A program made the translations under genes and the position numbers. Shown one piece after another: positions 24,125-45,620 of a stretch of DNA of 64,000 nt. Position 1 is the first letter of the stretch; each line of letters starts with the position of its first letter. The DNA is from Streptomyces sp. NBC_01217. GTDB lineage: Bacteria; Actinomycetota; Actinomycetes; Streptomycetales; Streptomycetaceae. The stretch spans positions 1,612,001-1,676,000 of the forward strand of contig NZ_CP108538.1 of assembly GCF_035994185.1 (NCBI RefSeq). Direction: 5' to 3'. Under the pieces are notes generated by a model. It was not told the origin of the DNA. It made no database searches and saw nothing but the letters and a program-made list of their open reading frames with translations.

Positions 24125-24952
24125 TCAGCGAGTGGCGAGCGCCACTTCCCCGGCCTGCCGCATGGCGGCGAGCGGGGCGGGCGCACGGCCCGTCATCTGC
24201 TCGACCTGGAGGACGGCCTGGTGCACCAGAAGGTCGAGACCTCCGACGACTGCGCCGTTACGGGCCGCCCAGGCGGTGGCGAGTTTGGTGGGCCAGGGCT
24301 CGTACAGCACGTCGAAGAGCGTGCCGGGCCGTTCCGGTACCGCGGCGGCCAGCGCGTCCGTGGCACCGGCCGGTGTGGTGGCGATGATCAGCGGGGCGTG
24401 CAGCGCCTGCCCGGCCTGCGCCCAGTCCGAGATCCGGACGTCGACGCCGAGGCGCTCGCCCCAGCCACGCATCTCCCGCCCCCGTTCCCGACTGCGGACG
24501 TACGCCGTGACCGGTCCCGTACAGATCGCCGACAGCGCGGCGAGCGCCGAGGAGGCGGTCGCTCCGGCACCGAGGACGGCGGCGGATTCGGTCTTCTCCA
24601 CACCGCGTTCGCGCAGCGCGGCGATCATTCCGGGGATATCGGTGTTGTCACCGAGCCTTCGTCCGTCCTCCGTGAGGACGACCGTGTTGACCGCCTCCAC
24701 CGAGGACGCGGTCTCGCTGATGGAGTCCAGCAGCGGAATGATCGCGCGCTTGAGCGGCATGGTCAGCGACAGTCCGGCCCAAGTGGCGTCGAGCCCCTGG
24801 ACGAAGCCGGGCAGTGCGGCCTCGTCGATCTCGAAGCGGTCGTACGACCAGTCGGTGAGACCGAGTTCGCGGTAGGCGGCGCGGTGCAGTACCGGGGAGA
24901 GCGAGTGGGCGATGGGCGAGCCGAGGACGGCCGCCCGTCGGATGGTGCTCAC
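24125..24952 (-). CDS. aroE: Shikimate dehydrogenase
   Basis: NADP-dependent reduction of dehydroshikimate to shikimate. The 275-residue product from GTG 24952 has the shikimate-binding SPIAHSLSPVLHRAAY, the catalytic Lys in LTMPLKRAI, and DNTDIPGM. The nucleotide-binding AAVLGAGATASSALAAL follows. The usual NVT before the Lys loop is SLT here. The GTG overlaps the mltG stop by four bases (GTGA), which decides the start over the ATG at 25057. Confidence 0.94.
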   Translation of the reverse strand: MSTIRRAAVLGSPIAHSLSPVLHRAAYRELGLTDWSYDRFEIDEAALPGFVQGLDATWAGLSLTMPLKRAIIPLLDSISETASSVEAVNTVVLTEDGRRLGDNTDIPGMIAALRERGVEKTESAAVLGAGATASSALAALSAICTGPVTAYVRSRERGREMRGWGERLGVDVRISDWAQAGQALHAPLIIATTPAGATDALAAAVPERPGTLFDVLYEPWPTKLATAWAARNGAVVGGLDLLVHQAVLQVEQMTGRAPAPLAAMRQAGEVALATR

Positions 24953-26736
24953 TGGCCCGACTTCTCCTCTTCGTACTTCTTGCGATTCTGCTCGTGCTCC
25001 GCGTTGGTCACTGCGAACAGCGTCTTGTCCTCGGTCACGGACACGAAGTAGTACCACGGTCCGGGAGTGGGCTTGATCGCCGAATGAAGCGCGGCGTCGC
25101 CGGGATTGTTGATGGGCCCCGGCGGCAGTCCGTGGATGTAGTACGTGTTGTACGGGTTCTTGAAGTTTCGCAGGTCCGAAACCGGTCCCGTGTCCAGTGT
25201 GCTCTGCGCCTTGGCGTAGTTCACCGTGGAGTCGAAGTCGAGCAGGCCGTACGTCTCGGTGTTGTTGGGCTTCAGCCGGTTATAGACGACCCGTGCGACC
25301 TTGTCGAAGTCGTGCTTGTATTTGCCCTCGGCCTGAACGAGGCTGGCGACGGTGATCACCTGCCAGGGGTTCTTGAGACCCACCTCCTTGGCCGCGCCTT
25401 CGAGGTCGACCTTCTCGTACTCCTCGTTGGCCCGCGAGACCATCTTCTTGAGGACGGCCTCCGGCTTCATCTCCTTGGTCACCGGGTAGGCCGCCGGGTA
25501 GAGGAAGCCCTCCAGCGGGTCGATGAGGCTCTTGTTCTTGTCGGCCCAGTCGGGCATGCCGAGGCTGCCGGCCTTGGAGACGGCGACACTCTTGGTCGTT
25601 CCGGCCTTGACGCCGAGCTTCTTGTCGATCTTCGCGTAGATCTCTTTGTTGCGGGTGCCCTCGGGAATGATCAGGAGATTCTGGCTCTTGGGGTCGACCA
25701 TCATCTTCACGGCCTCGGCTGCGGACATCTTCTCGTGGAGGATGTAGACGCCTGCCTGGATCGTCTTGCCCTTGGGGTTCGCGTTCTGCGCGGAGACGAA
25801 GGCGTCGACGCTCTTGACGACACCCTTCTGCTTCAGGATGTTGCCGATGTCGTAGCCGTAGGCGCCCTTCTCGATCTCCACCTCGACCTCGCCGGTGCCC
25901 ACTCCGGTGTAGTCGGGCGCCGCGCCGAACTTGTCCTGCCAGTACGAGTAGCCGACGTAGGCCGCTCCGCCGAGACCGCCGACGAGGACCATCGAGACGA
26001 CCAGGCAGGCGCAGCCGCTACGGCTCTTCTTCTTTCCCTTGCCGCCCCGGCGCTCGTTGCCGCCACGGCCGCGGCGTGATTCACGCGGGTCGTCGTCGTA
26101 CTCGTCGTCGTTGTCGTCGCGGTCGTCGGCGCCGGTGAAGAAAGGATGCGTCTCTTCCGGCTGGACCTCCGGGTCCCAGTCGGGATTCCGCGCGGGGGGC
26201 GGCTCGGCACCGGCATCGCGGCGGCCCGGGGGCTGCGGTGGCGGGTAGGCCTCCGGCGTGCCGTAGTAGTCGTGCGTCTCGCCGTAGCCGACCTGCCGGC
26301 CGCCGTACGGGTCGGCCTGCTGGGCGTCGTACGGCGCCGAGGCGGGCTGCTGCCCGGTTTCCCAGCCGCCGTTGTTGTACTGCGGATGCTGAGGCTGCTG
26401 GGGGTGCTGGGGGTGCTGGGGGTGCTGGGGCTGCTGCGCCTGCTGGGGGTGCTGAGGCTGGTGCTGCTGCGCATACGGGTCCTGCGGGACTCCGTACACG
26501 GGCTGCTGCTGGTAATGCTGCTGCCCGTACGGGTCATGGGCCTGCTGTTGCTGCGGCTGCTGGGGGTGCTGAGGCTGGTGCTGCTGCGCATACGGGTCCT
26601 GGGAGTAGGGCTGCTGCTGCCCGCCGTACTGGTTCTGGCCGTGGGCAGGCTGCTGTCCTCCCCATCCCTGGTCCCCGTACAAGGGGTCCTCGGGATGCCA
26701 CGGTTCGGAGCCGGGGCCCCGGCCATACTCAGTCAT
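24949..26736 (-). CDS. mltG: Endolytic peptidoglycan transglycosylase MltG
   Basis: Membrane-bound murein endotransglycosylase thought to release nascent glycan strands. The 595-residue protein from ATG 26736 (AGGGGAT upstream) has three parts. The cytoplasmic tail is very rich in Gln, Pro, His and Tyr (about residues 15-119). One membrane segment follows (about 243-268, CACLVVSMVLVGGLGGAAYVG). The YceG domain contains the catalytic Glu in ASLVQAEGKYKHDFDKVARVV. It lies between ruvX and aroE with a four-base overlap to aroE. The low-complexity tail is much longer than in E. coli MltG and seems to be an actinobacterial addition. Confidence 0.95.
   Translation of the reverse strand: MTEYGRGPGSEPWHPEDPLYGDQGWGGQQPAHGQNQYGGQQQPYSQDPYAQQHQPQHPQQPQQQQAHDPYGQQHYQQQPVYGVPQDPYAQQHQPQHPQQAQQPQHPQHPQHPQQPQHPQYNNGGWETGQQPASAPYDAQQADPYGGRQVGYGETHDYYGTPEAYPPPQPPGRRDAGAEPPPARNPDWDPEVQPEETHPFFTGADDRDDNDDEYDDDPRESRRGRGGNERRGGKGKKKSRSGCACLVVSMVLVGGLGGAAYVGYSYWQDKFGAAPDYTGVGTGEVEVEIEKGAYGYDIGNILKQKGVVKSVDAFVSAQNANPKGKTIQAGVYILHEKMSAAEAVKMMVDPKSQNLLIIPEGTRNKEIYAKIDKKLGVKAGTTKSVAVSKAGSLGMPDWADKNKSLIDPLEGFLYPAAYPVTKEMKPEAVLKKMVSRANEEYEKVDLEGAAKEVGLKNPWQVITVASLVQAEGKYKHDFDKVARVVYNRLKPNNTETYGLLDFDSTVNYAKAQSTLDTGPVSDLRNFKNPYNTYYIHGLPPGPINNPGDAALHSAIKPTPGPWYYFVSVTEDKTLFAVTNAEHEQNRKKYEEEKSGQ
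26378..26600 (-). repeat. CAG/CCC-type low-complexity tract encoding a Gln-Pro-His repeat in MltG
   Basis: Repeated GGGGTGCTG and CTGCTG units (plus strand) encode runs such as QHQPQHPQQ and PQHPQHPQ. One block, GCTGGTGCTGCTGCGCATAC, occurs twice (about 26458 and 26576). The tract is inside the coding frame and is a likely site of repeat-number variation among strains. Confidence 0.6.
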
Positions 26737-41636: not shown

Positions 41637-44210
<2,574 letters not shown>

Positions 44211-44307
44211 GAGCGCTCCTCATGCGGATCCGGATACCCGGAAAGGCCATCGTATCGACCCTGTGGCCGGTCCTCCCCCGGGGATCGTGAGAGCCCTCAC
44301 AACACGG

Positions 44308-44339
44308 AACGGGCACCCGGTTGTTCCCGGGTACCCGTT
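44308..44339 (-). terminator. Hairpin after the secreted-protein gene
   Basis: AACGGGCACCCGG (44308-44320) pairs with CCGGGTACCCGTT (44327-44339), with one mismatch. It resembles in sequence the hairpin after apt (45013-45049), which fits a duplicated apt 3' end plus terminator. Confidence 0.5.
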
Positions 44340-44379
44340 CTTCGCGCATGAGCCGTTGCCACGTACGGCCCGTTGCAGC

Positions 44380-44457
44380 TCAGACCGTGATCAGAGCCTC
44401 CAGCGGGGCACCGCGCAGCCCCTGCTCCGGACGGGCGCGCCCGGGACCGAGGAGGCC
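44380..44457 (-). pseudogene. Decayed second copy of the apt 3' end
   Basis: The stretch from 44380 matches the last 65 bases of apt (45066 onward) at 46 of 65 positions without gaps, by hand alignment. In the corresponding frame the two read GRARPEQGLRGAPLEALITV here and GRARLERALAGAPLEALSRV in apt, both ending at a TGA. It has no start of its own. It lies just after the secreted-protein gene, so it marks the relA-side boundary of the inserted segment. Confidence 0.75.
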
Positions 44458-44468
44458 CGCGCCGCGGT

Positions 44469-44884
44469 TCAGTTCCACCGCAGGAGCGCGCCTCCCTTGA
44501 TCTTCATCTCCTTGTTGGCGGCGACGTTCCCCCACGGCACCTTGATCTGGCCGCTCTTTCCGCAGCCGGCGTCGTACCAGGTCTTCTTCCCCTTGGAATT
44601 GAAGCCCTTGACCTTTACGCAGACACTGCCGCCCTTGTAAACCTTCCAGCCGTAAACCATTTTCATGCCCTTGGCACCGAAGTGGGCACAGCCGTCGTTG
44701 AGCGTGGTCCACTTCGCTGGAATTCCCACCGCATTCTTCCAGCCCGAGCAAATGCCCTTCGGGGCCACGACGGCCGGTGCGGCAGTCGTGGCCGGGCTTG
44801 CGCCGGCGGGAGCGGCGCCCACCGCGACGGCCGCGAAAGAGAGAAGAGAAACCGCCCCGTGGCGATCTTGCGTGAAATCGTCAT
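44469..44884 (-). pseudogene. Small secreted cysteine-containing protein, frame broken in the signal peptide
   Basis: The mature part is clear: ICSGWKNAVGIPAKWTTLND onward to GGALLRWN, about 95 residues with four Cys (in ICSGW, DGCAH, SVCVK, AGCGK). The natural start is ATG 44884 with AAGGA about 7 bases upstream, reading MTISRKIATG. That frame does not join the mature frame. One extra G in the four-G run (44855-44858) would restore MTISRKIATGAVSLLSFAAV and AVGAAPAGASPA, a normal Sec signal peptide. As given, the mature frame opens only from an ATG at 44933 lacking a signal-like start. This is a genuine mutation or a homopolymer sequencing error. GC is 47-57% in single lines, far below neighbours. 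Confidence 0.8.
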
Positions 44885-45012
44885 TGGATTCCTTCTGTTT
44901 GGATGCCTGGTCAGTGGCATCACCAAGATCCAATCAGATGACAGTTCGATTGACACGCCATTTGAGGTTGTTCTGAGCTGCTTCCGCGCTCGTGCACAAT
45001 TCACAGACGCAC

Positions 45013-45049
45013 AACGGGTGCCCCAAGGAAAATCCTTGGGGCACCCGTT
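45013..45049 (-). terminator. Terminator of apt
   Basis: AACGGGTGCCCCAAGG (45013-45028) pairs perfectly with CCTTGGGGCACCCGTT (45034-45049), a 16-bp stem with a 5-base loop. It lies 17 bases after the apt stop on the minus strand. Confidence 0.7.
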
Positions 45050-45065
45050 TCATGACCAGAGGGTC

Positions 45066-45620
45066 TCAGACCCGGCTGAGCGCCTCGAGCGGTGCGCCCG
45101 CCAGGGCGCGCTCCAGACGGGCCCGGCCCGCGAGGAACCCGAGCTCCATGAGGACCGCGACGCCCGCGACCTGGGCACCGGCCCGCCGGATGAGCTCCAG
45201 CGACGCCTCGGCGGTGCCACCCGTGGCAAGGACGTCGTCGATGACCATGACCCGGTCATCGGCGCAGAGGTCCTCTGCGTGGATCTCGATCTCCGCGCTG
45301 CCGTACTCCAGGTCGTACGCCTGCCGCAGTGTGGCCCTGGGCAGCTTCCCCGCCTTGCGGACGGGTACGAAGCCGAGGCCGGCCCGGATCGCGACGGGTG
45401 CGGCCAGGATGAAGCCGCGTGCCTCCAGACCGGCGATCTTCGTGGCGCCGTGCCGTACGCACAGCTCCGCGAGGGTCTCGGTGAGGGCCGCGAACGCGGT
45501 CGGGTCCGCAAGCAGCGGGGTGATGTCCTTGAACATCACGCCCGGCCTCGGATAGTCCGGCACGTCGCGGATCCGGCTGAGCAGGAGCTCCCGGGTGACC
45601 TCGGCGGTACTGCTGGTCAT
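45066..45620 (-). CDS. apt: Adenine phosphoribosyltransferase
   Basis: Salvages adenine with PRPP to AMP. The 184-residue protein has the PRPP loop VMVIDDVLATGGTAEAS and the adenine-site flexible loop PVRKAGKLPRAT. Its ATG overlaps the secF stop by four bases (ATGA). The secDF-apt-relA order is conserved in Streptomyces, but here a low-GC cassette separates apt from relA and repeats the apt 3' end. Confidence 0.96.
   Translation of the reverse strand: MTSSTAEVTRELLLSRIRDVPDYPRPGVMFKDITPLLADPTAFAALTETLAELCVRHGATKIAGLEARGFILAAPVAIRAGLGFVPVRKAGKLPRATLRQAYDLEYGSAEIEIHAEDLCADDRVMVIDDVLATGGTAEASLELIRRAGAQVAGVAVLMELGFLAGRARLERALAGAPLEALSRV

Follow-up and report, generated by a model that had tools for sequence, protein, structure and literature searches.

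A second apt 3′ end behind a small secreted-protein gene probably records the gene's arrival between apt and relA in Streptomyces sp. NBC_01217

In Streptomyces sp. NBC_01217, a small secreted-protein gene, here called sec, lies between apt (adenine phosphoribosyltransferase) and relA, and is followed by a second, decaying apt 3′ end. This scar is colinear with the apt end of a sec-free sister genome and is no copy of the present apt end; it is most likely the old native end of apt, and it probably reveals the route by which sec arrived, with ordinary recombination as the mechanism. The reading that we favour, and regard as probable, is that a sec-free locus acquired DNA comprising an apt 3′ end, a terminator and sec, which stranded the old apt end. 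Related cassettes occupy the same place in other Streptomyces. Positions below refer to the window, i.e., the whole stretch of 64,000 nucleotides that was analysed, and all features of the locus lie on its minus strand.

Two apt ends at one locus

Along the minus strand, secF is followed by apt, a first hairpin, a low-GC leader, sec, 11 bases, the scar, a second hairpin and relA. The apt copy in use (45066..45620; 184 aa) is matched in at least 245 of 246 genomes, and its last 78 bases (45066-45143) are referred to as end A. Directly 3′ of its stop codon stands a terminator-like hairpin (hairpin 1, 45013..45049; arms paired at 17 of 17 positions), which presumably arrived together with the cassette. 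The sec leader contains an 11-base direct repeat, CTCA-N7-CTCA (44962..44979), a possible regulator or promoter site, and sec itself (44469..44884) is out of frame in its signal-peptide region. A junction of 11 bases (44458..44468) leads from the sec stop codon to the first base matched by an apt profile, where end B, the stranded 78 bases of the old apt 3′ end including its stop codon, begins (44380..44457). Behind it, hairpin 2 (44307..44340; one mismatch in 14 pairs, read by eye) corresponds to sequence that runs on from the apt end in sec-free kin, and most likely represents the native apt terminator; the downstream neighbour is the relA/spoT homologue (41637..44210). Ends A and B are separated by 608 bases, and sec makes up most of the coding part of this space.

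An earlier note on this DNA had described apt and relA as direct neighbours in streptomycetes, and in each of the 52 sec-free genomes measured the two genes are indeed separated by 148-241 bases. These sec-free rows were picked for the best apt or scar matches and are thus close relatives, no random sample, and the interval counts exclude L120 (a contig without relA) as well as L005, L021 and L024 (relA not located). The same note had reported a repeat of the apt end, followed in both copies by a similar hairpin. Both hairpins were found and the repeat is real, although it measures 78 bases instead of about 65, with 69% identity between ends A and B. A profile built from the last 100 apt bases of 51 sec-free genomes matches 44380-44457 at 45.7 bits (E 4e-14), far above chance: the best score among 2100 first-order random sequences was 10.7 bits, and the best match of this profile in any other carrier interval was 5.7 bits, so that it detects no second apt end in the 17 other distinct carriers.

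Several comparisons point to the scar as native sequence. Identity of end B to the apt ends of sec-free genomes is 73-85% in all 52 of 52 cases, with the best matches in L069 and L100 (84.6%) and 82% for L068, a sec-free member of the window's own four-genome clade (SH-aLRT 98). Sec-free apt ends are nearer to B in 34 of 52 cases and nearer to A in 11, with 7 ties; among carriers, 6 of 17 apt ends are nearer to B and 9 nearer to A, with 2 ties (L003, L004 and L006, being too short, are also excluded from these identities and from the tree). At all three informative sites in the scar the state is that of the kin. When 392 genomes were searched with the scar, at least 340 had a match, the best four besides the window among the matches listed showing 85-88% identity; since two candidates were scored per genome, these match counts cannot be used for finding second ends.

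Beyond the apt end itself, the sequence continues as it does in the sister genome. The L068 apt end and the spacer behind it align with the scar across the stop codon and into the bases before hairpin 2 (one 1-base gap; score 104; p at its floor of 1/301), and over 247 bases, from the scar to the start of relA, identity to L068 is 84%. The scar's stop codon is 169 bases from relA, and 20 of the 52 sec-free apt-relA intervals measure 168-171 bases. From this colinearity, and from a relA distance within the range of its kin, it follows that the scar most likely marks the former site of the apt end; the old sequence would have stayed where it was, still joined to the DNA that had always followed it.

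These data bear directly on a local duplication of the apt end and its terminator with sec inserted between the copies, a variant of which, with a replaced interior, had been offered in the earlier note. Duplication would account for two apt ends with two similar hairpins, but the ends are only 69% alike, which is below the identity of end B to any of the 52 sec-free ends, and they are not each other's closest relatives, as tandem copies would be. Moreover, the apt terminator of L068 fits the relA side of sec, where hairpin 2 lies (score 76), far better than the apt side with hairpin 1 (19, p 0.03). We therefore regard a duplication as very improbable.

A probable route of arrival

According to the favoured reading, the ancestral locus would have run, as is usual, from apt through its terminator to relA. 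The cell would then have received DNA of a related Streptomyces that carried an apt 3′ end, terminator, promoter and sec. On one side it would have recombined homologously with the resident apt; on the other side, it would have been connected, shortly after the stop codon of sec, to the last 78 bases of the resident gene by a join that was either illegitimate or circle-closing. The present apt end would thus be the incoming one, and the old end would have stayed behind sec together with its terminator and the leader of relA, decaying there as a scar; sec may now use the old apt terminator. We infer the direction of transfer, the homologous exchange within apt and the use of the old terminator by sec from the arrangement of these parts. 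The suggestion of the earlier note that the segment brought along an apt 3′ end is hence the best-supported one, with the roles of the two ends exchanged: the incoming end would be the one that apt uses today, and the decayed copy the old native end. The join falls within the 11 bases behind the sec stop codon, and any microhomology there could be read only against the donor's downstream sequence.

The same structure would result from the mirror image of these events, in which the ancestor possessed sec and received sec-free DNA with an apt end, terminator and relA, through a homologous exchange located within relA or past it and an illegitimate join behind sec, making A the native and B the foreign end. 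The sister loci of S. atratus do carry sec and match the window's relA best (96%, compared to 95% for L068). However, end B is most similar to sec-free genomes from the clade of the window and from the next one (82% for L068, 85% for L069), its three informative sites are in the kin-like state, identity to kin does not fall on the relA side (95-96% for L016, L014 and L068), and the secF side finds its best match in the sec-free L068 (95.5%). We consider this reversed order of events unlikely, although less so than the other alternatives treated here. A further possibility is that a whole unit of apt, terminator and sec arrived in tandem before the resident apt, which was subsequently deleted except for its last 78 bases. 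This leads to the same end product without a special join, but requires an extra deletion that stopped 11 bases behind the sec stop codon, and no intermediate with two apt genes was encountered in comparisons made for other purposes; we regard it as rather improbable.

If the DNA arrived together with an apt end, as the favoured reading holds, the present apt end might be expected to differ from that of its kin. End A is 74-77% identical to its nearest kin, compared to 92-94% for the preceding 102 bases, and this drop fits the idea that apt ends change upon arrival of the cassette. As proof of a foreign end A, however, it is weakened by the same drop between L068 and the S. atratus carriers (75.6% for the apt end, 95-98% for the preceding 102 bases), and since apt ends can differ considerably even in sister genomes, little weight attaches to end A being unusual. 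The two S. atratus apt ends are alike at 91%, and the comparison of S. atratus with L068 looks as if apt ends might travel with the cassette. End A is 77 and 74% identical to the S. atratus ends, and end B 74 and 72%; as these values leave end A and the S. atratus ends unlike each other, no donor could be identified. A switch-point test within the window's apt found 10 kin-like sites against 2 in the 5′ part and 3 against 6 in the 3′ part; a mosaic apt thus leans in the expected direction, but not significantly (p 0.16).

Several observations were counted against the arrival of sec as proposed here: the scarred event is seen once, the switch-point result for apt is not significant, the oddness of end A carries little weight, end A is slightly nearer to the S. 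atratus ends than end B is, and the terminator pattern, the sec tree and the raised synonymous divergence of sec, all three considered below, do not uniformly agree with it (the terminator pattern being missing in 7 of 18 carriers).

Related cassettes behind apt in other Streptomyces

Across 246 Streptomyces genomes, 13 match sec at E 0.001, and 6 of them, including the window, do so with at least 51% identity; the cassette is therefore not a standard feature of this position in most streptomycetes, which would have spoken against an insertion. All six copies at or above 51% identity adjoin apt. In four genomes (G000, G182, G004, G091) sec lies between apt and relA, and in G163 it follows apt at a contig end that reads, by eye, as the start of relA. 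In Streptomyces sp. G44 (G187; L006 and L025), sec is inverted and lies between secF and apt, i.e., on the other side of apt, and this is the one close Streptomyces copy found away from the apt-relA side. The seven weaker matches (33-47%) had no full apt adjoining them where checked (L007-L013). A scan of one genome per species with two peptide patterns, which can miss relatives, found 22 sec loci. Fourteen are from Streptomyces, and all 14 adjoin apt: 13 directly downstream on the same strand, with relA located beyond sec in 11, the contig ending in the other 2 without relA having been found, and the remaining one in the inverted arrangement of G187. The other eight loci, from Actinomadura, Amycolatopsis and Curtobacterium, showed no apt match in the DNA examined around them; the sec relatives L028-L035 from these genera share a VPWGNVAA stretch. 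At the DNA level, sec was matched in at least 11 of 392 genomes, and this search missed the carrier G004.

The position of the cassette relative to the apt terminator can be read from sec-free relatives as well. In 11 of 18 distinct carriers, the sequence that a sec-free relative has behind its apt stop codon fits the interval from sec to relA (scores of 50-102) far better than the apt side (14-27). In these carriers the cassette, bringing a hairpin of its own, is thus placed behind the apt stop codon but ahead of the native apt terminator. Of the other seven carriers, five show no clear difference, and L019 and L015 have the higher score next to apt. For each carrier, the sec-free partner was chosen by the analyst, mostly as the nearest on the tree. 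Several apt-side scores have p values below 0.05, with L112 against L069 at the floor, probably because GC-rich hairpins are alike.

The history of the cassette is addressed by trees. On a quick tree of secF and relA (17 carriers and 52 sec-free rows; L017 and L020, being duplicates, and L025 further excluded), the presence of sec changes 11 times, at least 8 of them on well-supported branches. The sec tree mostly follows the clades; the window groups with S. atratus and G182, and also with L015, which sits on a long branch and is the exception (L003, L017, L020, L025 and L107 are excluded from it; L005 and L024, one genome, are kept as identical rows). It may therefore be that sec was present from early on, with many losses and an occasional regain. 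Conflict between the trees does not tell a transfer of sec from old vertical descent, and a topology that keeps the window with S. atratus is not rejected (p 0.09). Synonymous divergence between the window and L014 is 0.52 for sec and 0.18-0.23 for the flanks, and it is similarly raised in pairs with G182; between the two S. atratus genomes, it is 0.13 for sec and 0.09-0.19 for the flanks.

A remnant of a scar was also sought in S. atratus L014 and L016, where a brief stretch shared round a stop codon can be seen by eye. Local alignment of this stretch gave p 0.41 and 0.10 against the window's scar, 0.81 and 0.18 against the L068 end, and 0.21 and 0.04 against the L069 end, and no remnant is claimed. 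Since no scar was detected in the 17 other distinct carriers, most gains of the cassette would have been clean homologous exchanges, or are too old, or were no gains at all.

Integrative elements target gene 3′ ends, such as those of tRNA and tmRNA genes, and at tRNA genes their integrases restore the gene end. Site-specific integration of a small element at the apt 3′ end would produce the geometry observed here, with a restored gene end upstream and the old end downstream, and the place has been used repeatedly. Nevertheless, it seems scarcely credible as an explanation: sec stands alone between the two ends without an integrase, the ends (69% identical) share no direct repeat of at least 12 bases and hence no identical attachment repeats, the 17 other distinct carriers have no detected second apt end, and no phage record matches sec, the only hits to mobile DNA being weak partial matches (38%) in three plasmids.

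Taking the carriers together, we tentatively propose, as an idea that may well prove wrong, that the gap between the apt stop codon and its terminator is a genus-wide, recurrent docking place for an enzyme-free cassette of terminator, promoter and secreted-protein gene. Such a cassette might travel between species by means of the conserved flanks, frequently accompanied by an apt 3′ end, might be repeatedly lost and regained, and might exchange apt's terminator for its own while taking over that of apt; the window would hold the one copy found so far with a readable scar.

Composition, product and known parallels

The region was first noted for its low GC content, given as roughly 45-57%, and this range applies to the leader and parts of sec, but not to the rest. 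The GC content of 44380-45066 is 62.2%, compared to 70.0 ± 2.9% for 687-base windows, 0.5% of which are as low; the leader (44888-45015) has 50%, the mature part of sec 58.9%, and the lowest 100-base window 51%. In 21 carrier rows, mature sec has 59-69% and the leader 47-71%, with the window's sec as the lowest. The dip is thus present, but as a sign of foreign origin it is weakened by the other carriers sharing it. The lowest 687-base windows (61.3%) fall in an ordinary gene at 24801-25937, presumably mltG, beside an aroE-like gene, and the dip alone is for this reason no mark of insertion here.

The leader repeat is shared more widely. CTCA-N7-CTCA (second C or A) occurs in 17 of 21 distinct carrier leaders, in 0.5% of shuffles and in none of 52 sec-free intervals, the pattern having been picked after the leaders were seen; it is absent from the leaders of L003, L014, L016 and L107, which include both S. 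atratus. A strict form of the pattern, which the window's own copy does not fit, was absent from 61 genomes and thus speaks only weakly against a regulon. The 11-base period recalls Streptomyces regulator boxes, and the repeat suggests that sec might have its own promoter or operator.

The earlier description of a small secreted-protein gene between the apt ends holds, except that the gene is not intact: its ATG, which matches that of its relatives, is one frame off from the mature part. From its reading frames, the window's sec would be either broken or affected by an assembly error. The protein is 49-70% identical to five relatives, which begin with a clear signal peptide (MTISRRIATGA... in L002, MRISRKIATGA... 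in L014), and its mature part contains four cysteines. Other copies are damaged as well: the S. atratus OK807 relative (L016) lacks the 5′ half of the gene, and that in G399 (L107; genome 55% complete) is split over two frames. No match to the window's protein was found in Pfam or NCBIfam, the best E value of 22 family members against Pfam was 0.026, and among solved chains the best PDB hit, at E 0.97, is no match. Judging from sequence features, sec most likely encodes a small disulphide-bonded extracellular protein expressed from its own promoter, and would belong to a family which is spread over several Actinomycetota and has no curated profile among those searched.

The proposed route resembles homology-facilitated illegitimate recombination (HFIR), which is described as homology on one side and an illegitimate join on the other, adding new DNA beside a homologous anchor (PMC3240628). 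This E. coli study speaks of both HFIR of linear pieces and single crossover of a closed circle (PMC3240628), and Acinetobacter, Pseudomonas and Streptococcus are named in connection with HFIR in another report (PMC5361080). The homologous anchor with DNA added by an illegitimate join is the likeness to the event proposed here. However, the known events are experimental, whereas the Streptomyces window displays the product alone, and HFIR of a linear piece and the single crossover of a closed circle give the same product. For T6SS and Rhs loci of Vibrio cholerae, it has been proposed that an incoming module, anchored upstream, pushes the old 3′ part downstream, where it is retained (PMC5361080). 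There, the displaced parts are orphan immunity or effector genes, whereas in the window it is the decaying 78-base end of a housekeeping gene. In titles and the beginnings of abstracts, with subscription papers mostly outside the coverage, we recognised no report of an insertion between apt and relA.

The gain and loss of small genes between conserved neighbours is usually inferred from presence and absence alone, and a stranded gene end such as this one hints at both direction and mechanism from a single genome. In addition, a family without a curated profile adjoins apt in its close Streptomyces loci even though most species lack sec, which raises the questions of why this place is used and which role the secreted protein plays.
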